From a virus, in the IMG/VR virus record IMGVR_UViG_3300005515_000067, positions 1-20,151 of that record: a DNA stretch of 20,151 nt; one strand, 5' to 3'. The notes under the pieces were generated by a model that was not told where the DNA came from, did no database searches, and worked only from the letters and a program-made list of their open reading frames with translations. The translations under genes were made by a program, and so were the position numbers. Shown piece by piece: positions 2,108 through 20,151 of the stretch. Every line of letters starts with the position of its first letter. Position 1 is the first letter of the stretch.

Positions 2108-2548
2108 ATGAAGACCTGCTTCAAGTGCCGCCGCGAGCTGCCGCTGACCGAGTTCTATCGGCACAAGCGGATGGCTGACGGCCACCTGGGGAAGTGCAAG
2201 GAATGCACGCGCGCCGACGTCGCCGCATATCGCAACGCAAACCCGGAGGCGACCGCGGCGAGGAAGTCTGCGTACAGCAAGACAGCGGCCGGCAAAGCTG
2301 TTCTACGCCGTACGTACTTGAAGCGTCGAGGGACGCACCCCGAGCAGTTCGCGGCGAACACCATCGTCAGCAACGCCATCAAGTTGGGGAGGCTGATCCC
2401 GCAGCCCTGTTTCATCTGCGGCGCCCAGAGAGCCGAAGCACATCACGCCGATTACTCGCTGCCGCTCGCCGTGACCTGGCTGTGCAAGAAACATCACGTT
2501 GAAACCCACCAGCTGGCGAAACAGCTGAAACGAAAGGAAGCCCAATGA
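2108..2548 (+). CDS. HNH-like zinc-binding phage protein, 146 aa
   Basis: 146 residues with two metal-binding parts. The N-terminus has C4-x2-C7 and C30-x2-C33, a zinc-finger arrangement. The C-terminus has C101-x2-C104, a His pair at 112-113 within AHHADYS, then WLC (126) and HH (129-130) with H134, the pattern of HNH/treble-clef proteins common in phages next to recombination genes. A basic helical linker joins them. It may be a nuclease or only a DNA-binding zinc protein; the catalytic Asn is not obvious. Its stop overlaps the recT start in an ATGA junction, suggesting coupled expression with the recombination genes. Confidence 0.75.
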   Translation: MKTCFKCRRELPLTEFYRHKRMADGHLGKCKECTRADVAAYRNANPEATAARKSAYSKTAAGKAVLRRTYLKRRGTHPEQFAANTIVSNAIKLGRLIPQPCFICGAQRAEAHHADYSLPLAVTWLCKKHHVETHQLAKQLKRKEAQ

Positions 2549-11734: not shown

Positions 11735-12031
11735 TTACATTGGCTCGATCATCACCGACCACTCCTGCACGTACGCCGGGCCGTCGTCGCCCTGCGGCCG
11801 CTCCTCGCCCCTGAATAGCATTCCGCCCGTATGCATGGCGATGAGGCGGGCTTCGTAGAGGTCCGGCAGCAACCCTGGCCCGACCTGGGAATCGTGCCGC
11901 CGGACCTGAAGGACGTAGGTTGACCGCACTGCGGCGAGCGTGAGCGCGCCTTCGACGGCTGGCATCTGGTTGATCTCGCGGTTCGACAGGCGCCGCCCAT
12001 GGTCGCGCAGGCGCTTCACTTTTCCGTACAT
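11735..12031 (-). CDS. Unknown protein beside a LexA box, 98 aa
   Basis: 98 residues from ATG 12031. The frame extends upstream, but this ATG is preferred because a LexA box lies 14 bp before it and the longer N-terminus looks like noise. The product begins with a basic segment (KVKRLRDHGRRLSNREINQMP) and continues beta-rich to a short WSVMIEP end. It resembles conserved short proteins near integrases in betaproteobacterial phages, without known function. There is no clear ribosome binding site, so a leaderless or weakly translated message is possible. If the box governs it, it is an SOS-induced gene. Confidence 0.6.
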   Translation of the reverse strand: MYGKVKRLRDHGRRLSNREINQMPAVEGALTLAAVRSTYVLQVRRHDSQVGPGLLPDLYEARLIAMHTGGMLFRGEERPQGDDGPAYVQEWSVMIEPM

Positions 12032-12038
12032 GCTGATG

Positions 12039-12069
12039 TTGAAAATACTGTATGAGCGTACAGTATAAC
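12039..12069 (+). promoter_or_regulatory. Candidate LexA-controlled rightward promoter
   Basis: TTGAAA (12039-12044) and TATAAC (12064-12069) are separated by 19 bases, or GTATAA (12063-12068) by 18. The LexA box occupies the spacer, the ideal place to block polymerase. It would transcribe the small gene at 12120. A leftward promoter for the 98-aa gene is less evident, although the box is symmetric and could control both directions. Confidence 0.45.
12046..12065. promoter_or_regulatory. LexA (SOS) box
   Basis: TACTGTATGAGCGTACAGTA is a perfect inverted-repeat match to the LexA consensus CTGT-N8-ACAG, with the outer TA and TA bases also conserved as in the strongest E. coli boxes. It lies between two divergent small genes, 14 bp from one start and 54 bp from the other. 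LexA cleavage after DNA damage would release these genes. Confidence 0.85.
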
Positions 12070-12119
12070 GGCTGACCAGCCGCAACCTGCCGGCGGTGCG
12101 CCTACCGTATGATCGGCGC

Positions 12120-12338
12120 ATGGAACTGAGCCGCCCGAACACCGAACTTGCCGCCGCAGTCGACCACGCGCTGACCATGGGCGACGTGCGCGCCGCGGCC
12201 GCCTACCTGGCCGACCACGGCGCGGGCTTCGCGCTCATCTGCCGGGTGCTGGCTGAGCCGGCGCGGCGTCGGCCGGGAGCGACGACGGAGGCGCCGGCCA
12301 CACCTGGTGCACGTACCCGCCTTCCGTCGTCCGCATGA
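12120..12338 (+). CDS. Small helical phage protein, 72 aa
   Basis: 72 residues from ATG 12120. Residues 1-50 (ALTMGDVRAAAAYLADHGAG, then FALICRVLAEPARRR) follow the pattern of a short helical protein found in betaproteobacterial genomes and phages, with a C-terminal Pro/Ala-rich tail. It lies downstream of the LexA box promoter and reads against the lysis operon. Its 3' part overlaps the leftward 47-aa ORF, so the tail is uncertain. Function unknown. Confidence 0.5.
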   Translation: MELSRPNTELAAAVDHALTMGDVRAAAAYLADHGAGFALICRVLAEPARRRPGATTEAPATPGARTRLPSSA

Positions 12339-12378
12339 CGAGCTGCTGCTCGGTCGGCGTGATGACGTGGAAGTCCAT
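12235..12378 (-). CDS. Possible 47-aa ORF after the holin
   Basis: 47 residues from ATG 12378, whose A is also the last base of the holin stop (TGATG), suggesting coupled translation. The product has a compact start (MDFHVITPTEQQLVMRTTEG) and a Pro/Ala-rich end. It has no lipoprotein signal or membrane segment, so it does not look like a spanin. It overlaps the opposite-strand gene at 12120-12338 for 104 bp. Real or not is uncertain. Confidence 0.45.
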   Translation of the reverse strand: MDFHVITPTEQQLVMRTTEGGYVHQVWPAPPSSLPADAAPAQPAPGR

Positions 12379-12905
12379 CACACCCCTGCCATCTTGCTGA
12401 TCGTCTCGTCCTTCTCGCGCGAGCTGCGCGAGCTGCCGAATTCGAAGGCGAAATAATCCTTCAGACAGGACCCCAGAATGCCGGCAATGGTGGACAGGAT
12501 GCCGACCGCTTCGCCCGGCATCTGGCCCTTGAACTGGACCAGCACATAGAGGCAGGCAATCAGCCCGACGACGACTGCCATCACGGCCATGTCGGCGCGG
12601 TAGTTGTGGCCGGCATTCATCTTGCGCACTTCCGTGTCGTGCGCGCGTGCGTCGACGCGGTCTGCCAGATAAGCCTTCTCGAGATCGACCTGCTGGGCGC
12701 CTACGGCCTGGCGGAACTCCAGCACCTTGTTCGGATCGGCCTGGATGGCCGCCAGCGCGGCCTCGCCGGTGTCGGCGCCGGTGACGGTCTTGGCAATGTC
12801 GACGACCTTGCCGGCGACGTCCGCCGCCTTATCGCTGCCGGTGAGGAGTTTGACCAGGGACGGCGCGAACTGCGCAAGCGCCATGGCGATCGTAATCGGG
12901 TCCAT
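12378..12905 (-). CDS. Holin of the 3TM family
   Basis: 175 residues from ATG 12905, preceded by AAGGAG at good spacing; a TTG one codon earlier is less likely. The N-terminal ~40 residues form a hydrophobic or amphipathic helix (MALAQFAPSLVKLL), a polar helical stretch follows, and two membrane helices lie near residues 104-125 (MAVMAVVVGLIACLYVLVQF) and 130-150. This fits the three-TM holin family described from gene transfer agents and phages. It would open the inner membrane to release the lysozyme encoded just upstream in the same operon (1-bp stop/start overlap). Confidence 0.8.
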   Translation of the reverse strand: MDPITIAMALAQFAPSLVKLLTGSDKAADVAGKVVDIAKTVTGADTGEAALAAIQADPNKVLEFRQAVGAQQVDLEKAYLADRVDARAHDTEVRKMNAGHNYRADMAVMAVVVGLIACLYVLVQFKGQMPGEAVGILSTIAGILGSCLKDYFAFEFGSSRSSREKDETISKMAGV

Positions 12906-13321
12906 CAAAATTCTCCTTTACGCATGAGTTCGGCCAGGCGGCGGGCGCGATCGCCGACCTGCTTGGCCCATTTCGAATCCAGCATCTCGGCGGCCGCCTC
13001 GGTGTAGCGGCCGGCGCGCGCGTGGTCCAGCATGTTCACGAAGAGCAGCAGGCGCTTGATGCCCAGGTTGAAGCACATGTTGGCCAGCACGTTCTGGCGC
13101 GCCTCCGACAGTTGCCGCCACCACGGGATAAAGCGGTCGAGATCCTTTTCCGCCAGATCGATATCGTTCTTGAGCATCAGGGCGATTTCGTCGTCGAAGA
13201 AAGGACGGTCGGTCAGGTTGCGGCCGACGCCGCCCGTCAGCTTGCCGACGGTGTCGATGTAGACCAGCGCGCGCCGGCCCTCGTCGATGGTGAGCTGTGC
13301 AGCGAGTTTTTCACGGTTCAT
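12905..13321 (-). CDS. GH24 phage lysozyme (endolysin)
   Basis: 138 residues. Catalytic residues E14 (IDEG), D23 (YIDTVG) and T29 (KLTGGVG) have exactly the spacing of T4 lysozyme E11/D20/T26. Downstream the LSEARQNVLANMCFNLG and GRYTEAAAEML segments are typical of the C-terminal lobe. The enzyme cleaves the glycan strands of peptidoglycan. No signal peptide or signal-anchor is present, so export depends on a holin. It lies between the XhlA-like gene and the holin gene, with gaps of 2 bp and an overlap of 1 bp. Confidence 0.92.
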   Translation of the reverse strand: MNREKLAAQLTIDEGRRALVYIDTVGKLTGGVGRNLTDRPFFDDEIALMLKNDIDLAEKDLDRFIPWWRQLSEARQNVLANMCFNLGIKRLLLFVNMLDHARAGRYTEAAAEMLDSKWAKQVGDRARRLAELMRKGEF

Positions 13322-13323
13322 GG

Positions 13324-13572
13324 TCAGGCCTTCAGGTGAGAAAGAATCCAGGTCAGGCCGCTGCCGATTGAGCCGGCGGCACCGCCGATCAGCATCAGCG
13401 TGCGCCAGCCGCCGCGGGCTTCCGCCAGCTGCGCGAGCACCTTGTCCAGCTTTTCGTTCTGCAGGGTGTTGGTGGCGCGCAGGTCGGATACTGCGACCTT
13501 CAAATACGTGACTTCGACCTGCAGAGCAGCCAGGGCGATGGCGTTTTGTTGTTCAGTCATGGAGGTGGTCAT
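13324..13572 (-). CDS. XhlA-like small membrane protein
   Basis: 82 residues. An N-terminal heptad-rich stretch (ALQVEVTYLKVAVSDLRATN and onward, residues ~15-52) predicts a coiled coil, followed by one membrane helix (LMLIGGAAGSIGSGLTWILSHL, residues ~59-80). This layout matches XhlA-like hemolysin/holin-accessory proteins. The first ATG is chosen because GAGG lies eight bases upstream; a second ATG four codons later lacks a site. It opens the lysis cassette directly after the tailspike gene. It could be a second holin or antiholin. Confidence 0.7.
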   Translation of the reverse strand: MTTSMTEQQNAIALAALQVEVTYLKVAVSDLRATNTLQNEKLDKVLAQLAEARGGWRTLMLIGGAAGSIGSGLTWILSHLKA

Positions 13573-13581
13573 TGGTTGGCC

Positions 13582-15858
13582 TCATGCGGTCTTCACGATC
13601 ACGACAGCGCGGCCGTCGGCCTCGACCGTGATGACCTTGCCGACGGCGCGCATGTAGTTCGTCAGCGTCATATCCGCTTCGTTCATGGGCACGCCCTTGA
13701 TGCCGTCGCCGTCCTGCACGGGCACGATGTACTGGCCCGGCTGGGCGCCGTACACGTTGACCGGCACTCGGCCAGCAAATGCGATCCGGTCGACCGTGGC
13801 GCGCACCGCTTCGTGGTCCTCATCGTATTTCTTGGCGTCCGCTTCCCAGTCCTGCATGGCGGCCTTGTAATCGGCGCGCAGCTTGTCGATCAAGGCGGCA
13901 TATGCAGCGCGGTCGGCCTCTTCCTGCGCGGCCACGGCCTTCCAGTTTTCCAGCGCCTTTTCGAAGTTCTCCATGCGCTTTGCGTCCACGTCCGGAATGC
14001 CGAGTTCTTCAGGCGGGTACGGCGTGCGGCCTGCCGTGATGCCTTCGTAATCCGGTTCGACGTACACGGGTTCGACGGGACGCAGGCCGAGATCGGCCGC
14101 CCACGTGTCGCCGCCGACGTAGGACGGGTCAGTCGACTTAGTGGCGAACGTGACGGAATCCGCGAAACGATCCGTGATTTCGCCGTTGGCCGTCACACCG
14201 ACAATCTGACCTTTCGCAATCGTGCCCACGCCGGGCGCCTTGCGCATATATTCGGCATAGTCGGCCCCGCTGGTGTTCACCGTGCCGGCCGCGTTGATCG
14301 AACGGCCATTGCTCGAGTGCTTGCCGGTGGCCAGTCCAGTGGGCGCACCGTTGATCGGCCCAGCGGTGACGTGCTGAAAGTAGGCGGCCGTCGTGCCCGC
14401 GCCCTGCAGCGTCAAGATCACGCCCGCCTCGGCCAGGCCAGGCTTGTTGATGATGTGCGACGAACCGGACGACACGCCCATGAAGCAGTTGCCGTTTGTG
14501 TCCATCCCGAAGCCACTCACGCCGCTCGGCGTGTTGACGCCGTACTGCGTGGCCGTGTAGCGCGTCGACCAGCCGAACCGGTTTTCCACCTTCCCGACCG
14601 GATCCTCGATGACGTAGTTCTTCGCACCGGCATCGGACACCGACGCGGTGCAGTTGTCGTTGTGGTTCGCGATCGCGTGGAACAGCTGGTACGTGTTGTC
14701 GGCGCTCTGCGCCTCGATCTGCGCTTGGAACAGCTCCAGGTAGTTGTGACCGATCTTCTCGCCCACGACGTTCGGGCCCAGCGTGATGCCGACGCCGACC
14801 TGCGCGCCGGCGGCGCCGCTGGAGCTCTGCAGCAGGTTCGCGAAGTACGAGTTCGCACCGCCCTTGTTTACCTTGATGGGCCGGTTCGACAGGATGTTGT
14901 TCCGGTGGAAGCGGCAGATTTGGAGACCCTGCGTGGTGGTCTCGGTAATGCCGTTGGCGAAGGCGAAGCCGGCGTCCCCGATGGTGTTGTTGTCGATCGT
15001 GTGCGCGTATGCGCCGGGCACAAACGCGCTCGTGACCGGATCGATGTCGGTCAACAGAATGCCGGTCCCGCCATTGTTCGATCCCGACAGCAGATAGCAG
15101 TCGTGGATATGAGCACGGCCGGCATAGACCCTGATCGGGGCCTGCGAGGCCGTCGACGGGCGGAAAATAATGTTCGACACCTCGCACTGCTGGTGCGCGA
15201 TGCGCAGCATGTCGAACACGGCCAGGTCGGGCGCGGTGATATACGTGCCGTACCGGGACGCACCGCGAATGCGCATGCCCTTGCCGGTGGTGACGATCGG
15301 TTGCGAGATCCGATAGTTCCCGGGCGGCAGGATCACCTCGCCGGCGAACGTCGTGAAGCACGCCAGGGCATTCTGCAGTGCCGTAGTGACGTCGGTCGGG
15401 ACGCCGTTGCGCACGTTGGCGATCTGGGCCGACGTCATGAAGTCGAACGCGCTCACGGAATCCCGGCCGCGATCGAGCAGCGTGCGCAGCTGGGCGCCAG
15501 CACCCGATGCATTGAAGCCGACGAGATTCGAGCCGGTCGGCGCGGCCAGCTGTGGCGAAATGTTCTGCAGACCGGCTGGGTCGGTGCTGTAGTTGTCGAC
15601 CGGGTATCCGCTGACCTGCTGGCCCGCGGCGGTCTTCAGGTCGACCTTGTACGCGCCATCCCAGAAAATCGCGGCTTCGCCTTTCGCGTCCAATGTGATC
15701 GGCCACTGGTGCGGGACCGTGCCGGCGGCGTCCTGGTACACGGCTTTCGGCGTCGTCGTGCCGGCGGCATAGGTGTACAGCTTGCAGCCGGCCGCCGGCG
15801 TGCCGTCGTTGTTGTAGTAGCGCTGTCGGCCTTCCGGCATGAGGGTGGTGGTAGGCAT
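13582..15858 (-). CDS. Tailspike with beta-helix and C-terminal chaperone-like domain
   Basis: 758 residues with AAGGA before the ATG. Residues 1-95 (LYTYAAGTTTPKAVYQDAAG, WPITLDAKGEA, FWDGAYKVDL) are a virion-attachment adaptor common to podoviral spikes. Residues ~135-500 look like a right-handed beta-helix of the pectate-lyase-3 type (FDFMTS, GEVILPPGNYRIS, many Asn/Gly turns), expected to bind or cut host surface polysaccharide. Residues ~525-758 (TSGADYAEYMRK, IVGVTANGEI, VDRIAFAGRVPVNV) resemble the Peptidase_G2-type intramolecular chaperone, interrupted at ~620-690 by a charged coiled coil. The spike probably trimerises and sets host range. Confidence 0.85.
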   Translation of the reverse strand: MPTTTLMPEGRQRYYNNDGTPAAGCKLYTYAAGTTTPKAVYQDAAGTVPHQWPITLDAKGEAAIFWDGAYKVDLKTAAGQQVSGYPVDNYSTDPAGLQNISPQLAAPTGSNLVGFNASGAGAQLRTLLDRGRDSVSAFDFMTSAQIANVRNGVPTDVTTALQNALACFTTFAGEVILPPGNYRISQPIVTTGKGMRIRGASRYGTYITAPDLAVFDMLRIAHQQCEVSNIIFRPSTASQAPIRVYAGRAHIHDCYLLSGSNNGGTGILLTDIDPVTSAFVPGAYAHTIDNNTIGDAGFAFANGITETTTQGLQICRFHRNNILSNRPIKVNKGGANSYFANLLQSSSGAAGAQVGVGITLGPNVVGEKIGHNYLELFQAQIEAQSADNTYQLFHAIANHNDNCTASVSDAGAKNYVIEDPVGKVENRFGWSTRYTATQYGVNTPSGVSGFGMDTNGNCFMGVSSGSSHIINKPGLAEAGVILTLQGAGTTAAYFQHVTAGPINGAPTGLATGKHSSNGRSINAAGTVNTSGADYAEYMRKAPGVGTIAKGQIVGVTANGEITDRFADSVTFATKSTDPSYVGGDTWAADLGLRPVEPVYVEPDYEGITAGRTPYPPEELGIPDVDAKRMENFEKALENWKAVAAQEEADRAAYAALIDKLRADYKAAMQDWEADAKKYDEDHEAVRATVDRIAFAGRVPVNVYGAQPGQYIVPVQDGDGIKGVPMNEADMTLTNYMRAVGKVITVEADGRAVVIVKTA

Positions 15859-15868
15859 CGGGTAGTCC

Positions 15869-16192
15869 TTATACGATGTCGGTTGCGGTGTACATGAAGG
15901 TCAGGCCGGCGCCCATGGCCTGGACTTTCCCGCCGGGGTTCAGGCCCTTGTTGATCAGTTCGAAGCACGGGTAGCTTTCGCCCGCGGCGATCGGGCGCGC
16001 CGAGATGTGCGTGATGACCGTGGTGCCGTCGGGCGCCACGAAAGCGACCGTGCCAGCGATGGGCGCGGCCGTCGTGTTGACCAGCGATGCGGATTTGATG
16101 ATTCGTTTGGTCAGGGCGGGCACTGTCGTGCCCATGTCGGCCAGCGCCGCGCCCAGCACCGCGCCGTCGAAGATGTACGGGTTGACTGCCAT
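15869..16192 (-). CDS. Small virion-associated protein, 107 aa
   Basis: 107 residues with AAAGGA before ATG 16192. The sequence is hydrophobic and beta-rich (TVAFVAPDGTTVITHISARP, CFELINKGLNPGGKVQA), suggesting a compact beta-sandwich. Its place between two tail genes and its composition indicate a small structural or tail-decoration protein. No family name can be given with confidence. Confidence 0.65.
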   Translation of the reverse strand: MAVNPYIFDGAVLGAALADMGTTVPALTKRIIKSASLVNTTAAPIAGTVAFVAPDGTTVITHISARPIAAGESYPCFELINKGLNPGGKVQAMGAGLTFMYTATDIV

Positions 16193-16213
16193 GGTGGTCC
16201 TTTCAGGTGGTTG

Positions 16214-16996
16214 TTATGCGGTCGTGCTGTCGGTGATCAGTCCCAGCGAGGCCCATGCGGTCAGCGCGGATGCGAGCGCCGCATTGCCGCCGCGCGAGCC
16301 CGTAACGGTCGGTTTTGCAACGGGGGTGGCGCCGAAGAAGCCGATGCCCGTGCCGTTGACAGAGATCCGCGTCGTGTTCGTCGCGCGCAGGGAAATCGTG
16401 GACGCGGCAACGGTGAGCGGGACGTAGCCGGCCGCCACGCGGTCATAGGCCAGCACACCGGTCGTGCCCGCTCCGAAAGCCGCGCCGTCCGAGTCGAACT
16501 CGAGCCCGGCCGCGCCGTTGTTGGAGACGACAAACCGGTACGTGGGTGACCCCGTGCCGGCGCTGAGGGTCGTGAACCTGCCGCTGTTGCGCGCGGTTGC
16601 GCCGATGGACGTGCCGTTGATCGTGCCGCCCGTGATGGCCACGGCATTCGCGTTCTGCCTGGCCATCGTGCCCAGCGACCCGAACGCGGCCGAATAGTCC
16701 GGGATCATGGCGATTTCCTTCCGGATGTCGTCCAGGATCCTGCGGTCAATCGACTGCGTCCACGTGAGCGCCGCCGCGACGTCCTGGGATCGGGTATCGG
16801 ACGCCGCCGGCACGTCGACACCGAAGGCGGCCAGCGCGGCCAGGTCGTCCGACGACATTCCGTTCGGGCCGCCGATCCGCGCCAGCACGGCGGTCAGCGC
16901 GCGCGAGAATTCCGGCGTCATCAGCACGGTCCCGTCCGGCTGCACGTTGCCGATCGCCACGCGCGCCGGGAACAGGTTCAAGGTGTTCTTGCTCAT
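16214..16996 (-). CDS. Tail fibre-like structural protein, 260 aa
   Basis: 260 residues. The N-terminal ~100 residues are helical and may attach to the virion. The middle has NANAVAITGGTINGTSIG and NSGRFTTLSAG, repetitive beta motifs typical of phage fibres and structural proteins, and the end has TVTGSRGGNAALASALTAW, a frequent phage structural C-terminus. It overlaps the gp10-like gene by 4 bp (ATGA), so the two are translated together. It could be an adaptor or side fibre. Confidence 0.7.
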   Translation of the reverse strand: MSKNTLNLFPARVAIGNVQPDGTVLMTPEFSRALTAVLARIGGPNGMSSDDLAALAAFGVDVPAASDTRSQDVAAALTWTQSIDRRILDDIRKEIAMIPDYSAAFGSLGTMARQNANAVAITGGTINGTSIGATARNSGRFTTLSAGTGSPTYRFVVSNNGAAGLEFDSDGAAFGAGTTGVLAYDRVAAGYVPLTVAASTISLRATNTTRISVNGTGIGFFGATPVAKPTVTGSRGGNAALASALTAWASLGLITDSTTA

Positions 16997-18426
16997 CGCG
17001 TCAGGCCCTCCGCGTCCACTGCGGCGCCGAGGATGACGCGCTTCACCGGATCGGAAATCGAGATCTCAAATACGCGATCGCGACTGCTGCCCAGGCGCCG
17101 AAGACGTGCGCGCGCCTTGAACTCGGCGATGCGGCCCATCGACATCGTGCGCAGAGTGCTCCAGGTGTGCCCGCCGTCGTCCGACCAGCGAACCATCATC
17201 AGCGGGTCGCTGCCCTGGCCAGTGAGCAGGCCGACGCCCGCCTCAATGTCGACCTGCAGGCCGTGGTAGCGGATGCGCCGGTAATCGCCGTCGGCCACGT
17301 GCGCCGCCGCCCGCCGCGCCAGCAACGGGTTGCCGTCGTCGTCGTAGCAGTCCAGGTCCAGCGCGTACAGGTTGCCGTTCTCCCAGTCGCCGACCACGTG
17401 CTCGCCGCTCCAGAACATGTGGCAGTTGGCGCGGTGCCGGTTCAGCTGGCCGTCGCTCGGGTCGAGCCATGCGCGCTCGTGCCAGAGCTGAGCTTTCACG
17501 CCGTAGACCCATGTCGCGTTCGCGCTGGGGAAGCTCAGCACATAGTGCGTTTCGCCTTCCTGCGTATAGGCGAAGGCTCGGGCATCCGAGATGTCGCCGT
17601 AGCTCTGGATCGCGCGCTCGATGCCGTCGTGGGACACGCGCACGGGCGAGTAGCCGTTCAGGCGCCAGACGGTGCCCTGGCCGGTCTTGTCCTCGCCCAG
17701 CCAGAACACGCTGTTGTCCAGGTCGGCCACCGAGTGCGGCGCGCAGCAGCCCTGTTCGATGAGCGCGTTGCCGTCGCGTGTATACGGGAAGTCGGCCTCG
17801 CCGGTGTAGCTCCACACCTCGGTCACGGTCCGTTTGAACAGCAGCAGCTGGCCGTGGTTGACGATATGGGAGACGATAGGCTCGGCGTTGCTGTCCGCCG
17901 CGGCGAAGTCGAGCGCGTCGAACGTCACCGAGCCGTCGGCCGCCGATATATAGAACTGGAACGTGCCGGGGCGGTCGAGGATGAAGGCGTTGTTCGCGTA
18001 GTCGACGCGCTGCCCGCCGTAGAACGCCTCGTCATCGATGCGCACCAGAGCGTTCGTGCCCAGGTTCAGCTGGTACCCGTTCGGGCCCGTCCCGAGTAGG
18101 GCGATGTTGCCGTTGTCCTTGATCGAGACGGGGGCGTCGAGCGCGTCGATCGTGCCCACCAGCGTTGGCGTGAAGTCGGCGGCCACACGGTAGACGTTGG
18201 AGCCGGCCACCGCAATGGCGTCGCCGACCGACGGCCGGTACAGCGCGCGGATGCCGCCGCCGGCGAGCGTCGCCAGCCGGCGCAGGCCGGGAGTGCCGAA
18301 CAGCGCGCGCACGGACTTGGCATTGCCTCCTGATTCATCAAGAACCGGATATAGATTGATACACCGCGACGCGCTAAAATTGAGGGACCTAGAAAGATAG
18401 GCTCCTCCAACAAAAGGGATTCTCAT
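16993..18426 (-). CDS. P22 gp10-like packaged DNA stabilisation (tail) protein
   Basis: 477 residues, close to P22 gp10 (472). It begins MRIPFVGGAYLSRSLN, CINLYPVLDESGG and GTPGLRRLATLAGGGIRALY, then repeated beta-propeller-like strands (TVTEVWSYTGEADFPYTR, GCCAPHSVADLDNSVFWLGE, WLDPSDG). Such proteins close the portal after DNA packaging and hold the tail needle or spike. The first ~36 codons (AGA, CTT, AGG, CTA, TCA) are A+T rich and unlike the GC-rich rest, continuing the composition of the HNH gene that abuts its start. No ribosome binding site precedes the ATG. Confidence 0.88.
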   Translation of the reverse strand: MRIPFVGGAYLSRSLNFSASRCINLYPVLDESGGNAKSVRALFGTPGLRRLATLAGGGIRALYRPSVGDAIAVAGSNVYRVAADFTPTLVGTIDALDAPVSIKDNGNIALLGTGPNGYQLNLGTNALVRIDDEAFYGGQRVDYANNAFILDRPGTFQFYISAADGSVTFDALDFAAADSNAEPIVSHIVNHGQLLLFKRTVTEVWSYTGEADFPYTRDGNALIEQGCCAPHSVADLDNSVFWLGEDKTGQGTVWRLNGYSPVRVSHDGIERAIQSYGDISDARAFAYTQEGETHYVLSFPSANATWVYGVKAQLWHERAWLDPSDGQLNRHRANCHMFWSGEHVVGDWENGNLYALDLDCYDDDGNPLLARRAAAHVADGDYRRIRYHGLQVDIEAGVGLLTGQGSDPLMMVRWSDDGGHTWSTLRTMSMGRIAEFKARARLRRLGSSRDRVFEISISDPVKRVILGAAVDAEGLTR

Positions 18427-19090
18427 GGTTGAAGACTGGAAGCCGATTGCAGGTTTTGAGGGGATCTACGAAGCCAGTAATCAGGGCAGGATTCGTAGAT
18501 TAGAGCGAGGGAAAAAGCTTTGCGCAGCGGATATTCCAAACATCGTGGCCTTACGTGAAAAAGGTTTGTCTCATCAAAAAATTGCAAACCAATTCGGAGT
18601 TAGTAAGAGAAACATTGCCATGATTTTCAAAGGACTTAACTGGGCCAATGACCCTGCACATCGTTTTATTCAAGGATCTCTGCTAACGACCGGCTACTTC
18701 ATGGTGCAGCTCCGCAAAGATGGAAAGTCGCACAGGCATTTGGTGCACAGACTGATCGCGCAGACGTTTATTGGCCCGATACCGGCTGGCCTGTGTATTA
18801 ACCATTTGGATGGAAACCCCAAGAACAATGCGGTGACCAATCTTGAAATCACAACATATGCCGGCAATGCTCAGCATGCGATTAAGGCTCTCGGTTGGAA
18901 GCCGACAGCTCAGCGTGGGCCTCAAAACGGTTGCGCGAAGCTAACCGAAGAGCAGGTTCGATATATAAAAAGTCAGCCGAAAAAATATGGAATCGCGACC
19001 AAGCTGGCGCGCGAATTTGGCGTCACTAATAGCGCAATTAGCTCAATCCTGAATGGGAAAAACTGGGCACATATCCAATCCAGGGCATAA
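18320..19090. mobile_element. Homing endonuclease insertion with converted flank
   Basis: A stretch visibly richer in A+T than everything around it, comprising the HNH gene and the first ~105 bp of the gp10-like gene. The change back to GC-rich sequence is abrupt at about 18320 and at 19090. This fits a free-standing homing endonuclease that arrived together with a piece of its donor's gp10 (co-conversion). No terminal repeats or target duplication are visible, as expected for homing. Confidence 0.65.
18425..19090 (+). CDS. Free-standing HNH homing endonuclease with two HTH modules
   Basis: 221 residues, SD AGGGA before ATG 18425. Residues 4-25 (WKPIAGFEGIYEASNQGRIR) form a NUMOD4 DNA-binding motif. 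Residues 33-76 hold an HTH module (LREKGLSHQKIANQFGVSKR), and 88-150 the HNH domain with H108 (LVHRLIAQTF), N126/H127/D129 (INHLDGN) and N139 (NLE). A second HTH occupies 169-216 (KLAREFGVTNSAISSIL). Both HTH modules end in an NWA motif, suggesting duplication. It probably nicks or cuts a specific phage sequence, most likely in gp10-type genes. It lies opposite to the late operon. Confidence 0.88.
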   Translation: MVEDWKPIAGFEGIYEASNQGRIRRLERGKKLCAADIPNIVALREKGLSHQKIANQFGVSKRNIAMIFKGLNWANDPAHRFIQGSLLTTGYFMVQLRKDGKSHRHLVHRLIAQTFIGPIPAGLCINHLDGNPKNNAVTNLEITTYAGNAQHAIKALGWKPTAQRGPQNGCAKLTEEQVRYIKSQPKKYGIATKLAREFGVTNSAISSILNGKNWAHIQSRA

Positions 19091-19091
19091 A

Positions 19092-19247
19092 TTGAGCGAC
19101 TACATCACCTTCAAACTGTGGAAAGCCGGGGCGCTCCTCGTGCTCGTCGTGATTTTCAGTGCCGTCCAGGGTTGGCGTGAGGGCACTAGTCGGAGCCGAC
19201 CACCGGAGCCGTCCGATAAAGGTACTGAAGCAGATTCGGACTCGTAG
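19092..19247 (+). CDS. Possible single-TM small protein, 51 aa
   Basis: 51 residues from TTG 19092, starting right after the HNH stop where GC-rich sequence resumes. The SDYITFKLWKAGALLVLVVI stretch and following residues give one N-terminal membrane helix and a polar tail, like many tiny phage membrane proteins. No ribosome binding site is seen. Its last 62 bp overlap the opposite-strand gene end. Possibly a gene whose original start was lost at the insertion junction. Confidence 0.4.
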   Translation: MSDYITFKLWKAGALLVLVVIFSAVQGWREGTSRSRPPEPSDKGTEADSDS

Positions 19248-20151
19248 CCGCCTGGATCGCGGGGCTTTGCATCGGCTGCCCGGTCATCAAGTCTCTAAGG
19301 GTGCCGCTGTTCAGCGCCTTGTTTGTCGCACGACCTGCGGCCATTCCGACAGCCGCTTTTACAGGCCCCGCCATCGTTGCCGCAGCAATTGCCGCCGCAG
19401 CCCGTTGCGCTCCGCCGTGAGCTCCTTCCCTCGGCTTCAGGAACTGTGCCGCGATGTCGGCTAATTCCTGCAAGTCCTTGTTGTTGATGTTCTTCAGGTT
19501 CGCCAGGCGCGCGATCGAGATGTCGCCGTCCACCCCGTTTTTCGCCAACTTTTCGAGCGCGAGCATGTTGCCGTACTGCTGCCGCGTCTTCGCGAAGGCT
19601 GCCGACGCCTCTGGTGTCATCGAGCGGTCGAGAGCACCCATCAGGTCGCGCTTGAGGTCGCTGGCGTAGTAGGCCTCGGGCGTGCTGCGACGGCCGATGC
19701 GATCCAAGACGCGCTTGATGTTGTAGGCGGCCTGACCGTCGATCTCTCCGTTCGCGTCGACCTTGTTCATGATCTCGTCGATCTGGTTCTTGATGACGCG
19801 GGCGCCATCTGACCCCAGTTCGCTGGTCGCGCGGGACTCTGCTTCCGACAGCGCGTCCAGGAAAGGCTGGTCGACGCGGACGGTGTTCGAGCGGAGCACG
19901 CGGTCAAATTCACCGCCCAGGTCGCCCTGTGCCTTGCGCAGTGCCGCCGTCACGTTCGCCGAGTGCTGACCGAACGTCGCGCTCAGTGCGCGGTTCAGCT
20001 GGTTCTGCATAGCCTGCTCGGTCGCGGCGCGCCCGCTGAACGGGACGTAATTCAAGCCTGCGGCCACGGCATTCAATGGCTTGCTGTCGGCGATACGGTC
20101 GGCCGGAATGTCGATGCCGAGTTGCTTCGCGCGATCAGCCAGCGCGACGAC
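19186..20151 (-). CDS. Partial virion protein, likely DNA ejection protein (C-terminal part)
   Basis: At least 321 residues, open to the right edge, so the N-terminus is outside the window. Recognisable pieces are RAKQLGIDIPADRIADSKPL, LNYVPFSGRAATEQAM and NRALSATFGQ, then long helical segments and an alanine-rich region near the end (RAAAAIAAATMAGPVKAAVG). This pattern is familiar from large internal virion proteins of podoviruses encoded upstream of gp10-like genes, thought to be injected with the DNA. The amphipathic Ala-rich region would suit membrane interaction. The name is inferred from context. Confidence 0.65.
   Translation of the reverse strand, partial: VVALADRAKQLGIDIPADRIADSKPLNAVAAGLNYVPFSGRAATEQAMQNQLNRALSATFGQHSANVTAALRKAQGDLGGEFDRVLRSNTVRVDQPFLDALSEAESRATSELGSDGARVIKNQIDEIMNKVDANGEIDGQAAYNIKRVLDRIGRRSTPEAYYASDLKRDLMGALDRSMTPEASAAFAKTRQQYGNMLALEKLAKNGVDGDISIARLANLKNINNKDLQELADIAAQFLKPREGAHGGAQRAAAAIAAATMAGPVKAAVGMAAGRATNKALNSGTLRDLMTGQPMQSPAIQAATSPNLLQYLYRTAPVVGSD

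Follow-up and report, generated by a model that had tools for sequence, protein, structure and literature searches.

Introduction

The stretch of DNA analysed here (the window; 20,151 nucleotides of the IMG/VR virus record IMGVR_UViG_3300005515_000067) carries a gp10-like gene whose first codons are A+T-rich and which begins back to back with an HNH endonuclease gene. The locus raises the question of where this gp10 start came from, and whether the endonuclease had a part in its arrival. Free-standing endonucleases located beside their target gene are known to transfer with co-converted flanks (PMC2988022), the recipient being assumed to become resistant once the donor allele has replaced the cleavage sequence (PMC12724721), and homing endonuclease genes have been described at the boundaries of genetic exchange, in so-called HEG islands (Barth et al. 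2023, PMC10448857). An earlier note on the window had proposed that homing repair copied the gp10 start of a donor along with the endonuclease gene. The features of the locus are listed in Table 1.

Table 1. Features of the gp10-HNH locus, with positions in the window.
Feature	Position	Strand	Basis or remark
Remaining gp10, ~99.9% identical to L001	16993..18039	-	Past nt 387 one difference, stop aside
gp10 nt 106-387, clade-level diversity (~93% to L001), GC-rich	18040..18321	-	Binned identity and difference list
Conserved junction block, gp10 nt 106-134, identical to L002; likely crossover homology	18293..18321	-	Nucleotide comparison of relatives
gp10 codons 1-35 (nt 1-105), A+T-rich, probably foreign allele	18322..18426	-	GC3 0.37; 61-69% nt identity to L001; N-terminal residues group with L035/L011
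CATG, overlapping divergent start codons of gp10 (-) and HNH (+)	18424..18427	.	Sequence
Free-standing HNH endonuclease gene, 221 aa (NUMOD4, HTH-like segment, HNH_3, C-terminal HTH), divergent from gp10	18425..19090	+	Pfam, PHROGs, I-HmuI 1u3e
Small conserved ORF, TTG start	19092..19247	+	59% identical to ORF in L010/L035; homology from start codon on
Ejection-protein gene, runs off window	19186..20151	-	phrog_26400; GC-rich upstream arm; nearest L035/L010, 77.6-77.8% nt

Composition of the gp10 start

The product of the gp10-like gene (16993-18426, minus strand) is a head closure Hc3 protein of 477 amino acids (PHROG 578; E 3e-117 for the whole protein against phrog_578). Codons 1-35 were found to have a GC3 of 0.37 and a GC content of 0.46, compared to 0.91 and 0.68 in the remaining gp10. 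The maximum-likelihood changepoint of the gene was codon 35 (codons 33-38 were almost equal), which places the switch at window position 18321/18322, and the gain in log-likelihood was 26.6, compared to a largest value of 11.2 among 1000 permutations. This confirmed the earlier observation that the first ~36 codons are A+T-rich and switch sharply to GC-rich codons near 18320. Codons 1-35 are also the 35-codon stretch with the lowest GC3 in gp10; the HNH gene aside, the minimum over 35 codons in the other genes examined was 0.457.

Codon usage was scored as HNH-like versus native late genes, and the gp10 start received a score of +30.4. The maximum among 1964 native windows was 15.9 (mean -13.3), while windows of the HNH gene had a mean of 17.3. 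The HNH gene had been described as having the same composition as the gp10 start; it was found to be A+T-rich in a similar style but not identical to it (GC 0.477, GC3 0.50).

The difference in GC3 between the first 35 codons and the rest of the gene was also determined for 99 other gp10 genes, taken from IMG/VR and phage records. These had a mean difference of -0.003 (sd 0.081, minimum -0.185), compared to -0.54 for the gp10 of the window, which thus lies ~6.6 sd beyond them. A general 5'-end codon effect, none being present in these 99 genes, was ruled out as the cause of the A+T-rich start.

A free-standing HNH gene at the gp10 start

Both Pfam domains of the HNH protein exceeded the curated cut-offs (HNH_3, 45.5 bits with a cut-off of 24.8; NUMOD4, 40.3 bits with a cut-off of 23.4). 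The PHROG match was to PHROG 59, HNH endonuclease (E 1.7e-49), and the closest solved structure was that of I-HmuI (PDB 1u3e, E 4e-13), with the core H/N/N residues aligned. The protein can be placed in the HNH (NUMOD4/HNH_3) homing endonuclease family, as it has both domains and a similarity to a characterised homing endonuclease that includes the HNH core. The gene is free-standing, with no intron involved. Owing to the overlap of the two start codons in the CATG palindrome, the translation start region of gp10 sits within the HNH gene and vice versa.

No HNH gene was present at the same place in L001-L017, L035 and other relatives. Matches to HNH_3 were obtained in 20 of the 112 related records scanned, and none of the matches that were located with respect to gp10 abutted the gp10 start; in L055, for example, the HNH gene lies ~1.3 kb upstream of gp10. 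In a distant relative (L176, record G083) an HNH_3 match at 27573-27701 is located just downstream of gp10, not at its start. Elsewhere in the window, a 146-aa ORF (2108-2548, plus strand) of native GC content has a zinc-finger/HNH-like Cys/His pattern (CFKCRRELP..., CFICG...HHADY); no Pfam match was found for it.

Comparison of the locus with relatives

The gp10 loci of 17 relatives were fetched first, and none had this HNH gene. L001, the nearest relative, is near-identical to the window across 6.4 kb (11995-18363). Within gp10, identity to L001 falls into three zones: 61-69% over nt 1-105, ~93% over nt 106-387 and ~99.9% from nt 388 onward. Compared to near relatives in general, identity was 61-72% until about nt 110 and 90-97% afterwards. 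The gp10 start therefore differs between the HNH carrier and the non-carrier L001 (61-69%), as against 90-100% identity downstream. The divergence of the middle zone equals the level seen among the clade members L001-L004 themselves. The composition break thus marks one crossover, and a second, later one relative to L001 is indicated at ~18040 (about gp10 nt 388), with either the window or L001 as its recipient. Another region of elevated divergence, with ~40 differences to L001 over 800 nt, was observed at 16000-16830, amid near-identical sequence, and appears to be a further exchange tract.

In HNH-free relatives (L035, L010, L001-L004) gp10 and the small divergent ORF are separated by a short spacer, which represents the empty state. 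Within the spacer, the Shine-Dalgarno site of the small ORF is accompanied by a terminator-like, GC-rich hairpin with T's after it; the hairpin of L001 was scored as a terminator in a terminator scan, while that of L035 was visible in the sequence but unscored by the scan. In the window the spacer is gone, together with its Shine-Dalgarno site and terminator, and the HNH gene is found in its place. Homology to L035 and L010 resumes at 19092, the start codon of the small ORF, and continues through the ejection-protein gene at ~78%. The small ORF, which is hydrophobic, is left without its Shine-Dalgarno leader owing to the HNH gene, and it overlaps the end of the ejection gene on the opposite strand.

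As the GC3 of the ejection gene is 0.80, the A+T-rich island is flanked by two native-looking arms. Codons 240-280 of the ejection gene (window ~19311-19431, minus strand) have a GC3 of only 0.45-0.53 in the window, L035 and L010; since this dip is common to all three phages it is old and unlinked to the HNH block.

The upstream arm of the window, nearest to L035/L010, likewise differs from that of L001, so that a larger module exchange must have taken part. For this reason, and given the second zone of ~93% at nt 106-387, the reading of the locus as the scar of a single co-conversion event ending near 18320 was too simple. The divergence peak that had been predicted for the first ~110 bp does exist, within the first ~105 nt and at the composition break, but it is followed by the ~93% zone to nt 387.

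Given that the record is metagenome-derived, and that the patchy identity to L001 (93%, then 99.9%) would also fit mixed strains, the possibility was considered that the assembly fused two phages from a single metagenome within a part of gp10 that they share. Such a chimera is highly improbable: the reading frame and the protein family are unbroken across the junction, exact matches to known relatives at the junction extend over no more than about 29-32 nt, and native sequence bounds the island on both sides.

Allele class of the gp10 start

The N-terminus of gp10 was found to keep the family protein sequence, as had been claimed, but as another allele (MRIPFVGGAYLSRSLNFSASRCINLYPVLDESGGNAK, compared to MQIPFVGGAYQSRSLNLDAQRCINLYPVLGESG-NAK in near relatives). 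Among the 35 N-terminal residues five are common to L035 and unlike the L001 class, and several of these also occur in L011. In a tree of the 35 N-terminal residues the window grouped with L035/L011 (support 0.91), while in a tree of the rest of gp10 it grouped with L001 (support 0.997). The allele class is moderate evidence, because so few residues are concerned, that the start was imported rather than recoded in place.

The alternative is that local selection turned the gp10 start A+T-rich in place, either as the promoter and ribosome-binding region of the HNH gene or as an aid to translation start after loss of the leader. That the five diagnostic residues follow the L035/L011 allele class argues against this, as it points to an imported segment beyond mere recoding. 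Because the HNH reading frame opens within the start codon of gp10, the promoter and ribosome-binding site of the HNH gene are to be expected in the first ~100 nt of gp10, and the length of the A+T-rich segment would fit a promoter region; a sigma-70-like consensus promoter was looked for in that segment, however, and none was found. The shift also stops abruptly at codon 35, and the 99 other gp10 genes lack any general 5' effect. Local selection is accordingly regarded as very unlikely.

An endonuclease-free relative with the same A+T-rich start, which by the earlier note would have spoken against its reading, was looked for among the loci of relatives and the 99 other gp10 genes, and none was found. 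L035 was ruled out as the donor, as its spacer is empty and its GC3 is 0.667. No donor phage was found in IMG/VR (queried with the HNH gene, the full gp10, the gp10 N-terminus and an N-terminal alignment) or in genome contigs (queried with gp10 and HNH); these searches yielded no more than remote HNH genes (36%) or gp10 starts with a higher GC content. The same searches returned no second HNH-bearing gp10 locus of this type, and there was no DNA match to window positions 17900-19400 among phage records. The argument for joint import thus comes from one sequence and its composition.

A conserved gp10 start in HNH-free phages

Third-base identity in gp10 codons 1-24 was 0.95-0.97 among HNH-free lineages, compared to 0.52-0.72 elsewhere in the same lineages, and part of the gp10 leader is conserved in the same manner among HNH-free relatives. 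When the window was compared to these HNH-free relatives, third-base identity was 0.00 for codons 1-12 and 0.11 for codons 13-24. In L001, L006, L007, L008, L013 and L015, silent sites of gp10 nt 1-72 are near-invariant, though these relatives are otherwise 76-82% identical. This frozen stretch may be either a crossover joint or a hidden DNA or RNA signal. On the simplest view it would be a recurrent crossover joint, comprising the gp10 start and ~70 nt before it, where HNH-free relatives also exchange their upstream arms. The arm upstream of gp10 (ejection genes and small ORFs) is strongly variable in L001-L017, L035 and L048, with a short terminator-like leader kept, and has the appearance of a module-exchange slot.

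The codons most conserved at silent sites (1-24) are precisely those recoded in the window, a pattern that a resistant allele next to a free-standing homing endonuclease might be expected to show. Avoidance of the relatives' codons beyond base composition gave P values of 0.0015-0.24 under a null of HNH codon usage and of 0.017-0.27 under a null of base composition, values which depend on the null chosen and on relatives that are not independent.

Since the gp10 start serves as a crossover joint also where no HNH gene is present, ordinary recombination could have brought the HNH gene and the gp10 start together. In that case the upstream arm swapped in through the conserved joint would already have contained a foreign gp10 start and the HNH gene, with no involvement of nuclease cutting. 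Close relatives have upstream arms that are for the most part unrelated, yet conservation extends over the first codons of gp10 and the 40-75 nt preceding them; in L048, L035 and L011, which lack the HNH gene, the gp10 start has switched allele; and the window itself combines an L035/L010-like upstream arm with an L001-like remainder. That arm is GC-rich, however (ejection gene GC3 0.80), so the island must have entered separately at some time, and the island coincides with a gene for a homing-type endonuclease. Ordinary modular exchange is a real but less probable rival to homing.

Proposed origin of the locus

It is highly probable that a block of ~0.77 kb (18322-19091), consisting of the HNH gene and the gp10 start, was imported. 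We favour, with somewhat less confidence, the interpretation that the A+T-rich start is a donor allele linked to the free-standing HNH gene, with intronless homing as the most likely driver. In a donor phage of lower G+C content, the HNH gene would have adjoined the donor's own gp10 start back to back. Homologous recombination would have brought the block into a GC-rich P22-type podovirus, with the crossover on the gp10 side falling in the conserved stretch of ~30 nt right after codon 35, and with the native spacer and terminator being lost. In a mixed infection with an HNH-free phage, the HNH enzyme would cut the conserved start of that phage's gp10, repair would copy the donor block, and the recoded gp10 start would then escape cutting. 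The locus would have been reshuffled later, the latest crossover relative to L001 being that at about gp10 nt 388.

Transfer driven by the enzyme is likely on account of the HNH family, the position of the gene and what has been published on free-standing endonucleases of phages. The proposal that homing repair copied the donor's gp10 start with the HNH gene is upheld in so far as the two form one foreign compositional block, but the joint also swaps where the HNH gene is absent, and the role of the enzyme is one that we infer. A cleavage site in the 5' part of gp10, as originally suggested, is plausible and may be narrowed to the first ~70 nt plus the leader, because this stretch is the most silent-conserved in HNH-free phages and is fully recoded in the window. 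More speculatively, and with considerable doubt, the locus could function as a 'cut and rescue' unit, in which the HNH enzyme targets the frozen first ~70 nt of gp10 and the leader in competitors, while the element carries a recoded, uncuttable start; the overlapping start codons would weld the two together, to be inherited only jointly.

Part of an essential virion gene appears here to have travelled with a free-standing HNH gene, and natural relatives show the junction, the empty state and the change of allele. As the proposed target is small and well defined (the gp10 leader and the first ~70 nt of the gene), the homing idea is directly testable in vitro.

Comparison with known systems

As is found for free-standing homing endonucleases (intronless homing), the site is empty in close relatives and the adjacent gene differs between carrier and non-carrier. 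Judged by its sequence, the HNH gene with its gp10 start appears to add a clear new case to a recognised class of selfish phage elements.

The likeness to I-HmuI (PDB 1u3e) lies in the NUMOD4 start, the alignable HNH domain and a DNA-binding C-terminal part. I-HmuI is intron-encoded; the HNH enzyme of the window, in contrast, is free-standing and has an additional helix-turn-helix-like insertion after the NUMOD4 motif.

In T-even phages SegF (next to gene 56), SegG (gene 32) and MobE (nrdB) undergo intronless homing, and the window resembles them in having an intronless endonuclease gene beside an essential or conserved phage gene. For the T-even Seg and Mob systems, co-converting transfer, a target in the neighbouring gene and replacement of the recipient cleavage sequence are described (PMC2988022, PMC12724721), and the window would share these features under the homing reading. 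The Seg enzymes are GIY-YIG or hybrid enzymes, compared to NUMOD4/HNH_3 in the window. Unlike the T-even cases, the HNH gene of the window is divergent from its neighbour, shares overlapping start codons with it and resides in a P22-type podovirus.

HEG islands (PMC10448857) are similar in that an endonuclease gene is located at the boundary of an exchanged module, beside an essential structural gene. The window differs from them in having a single such gene, with no second endonuclease on the other side within the window, and in that the exchanged part of the essential gene comprises only 35 codons.
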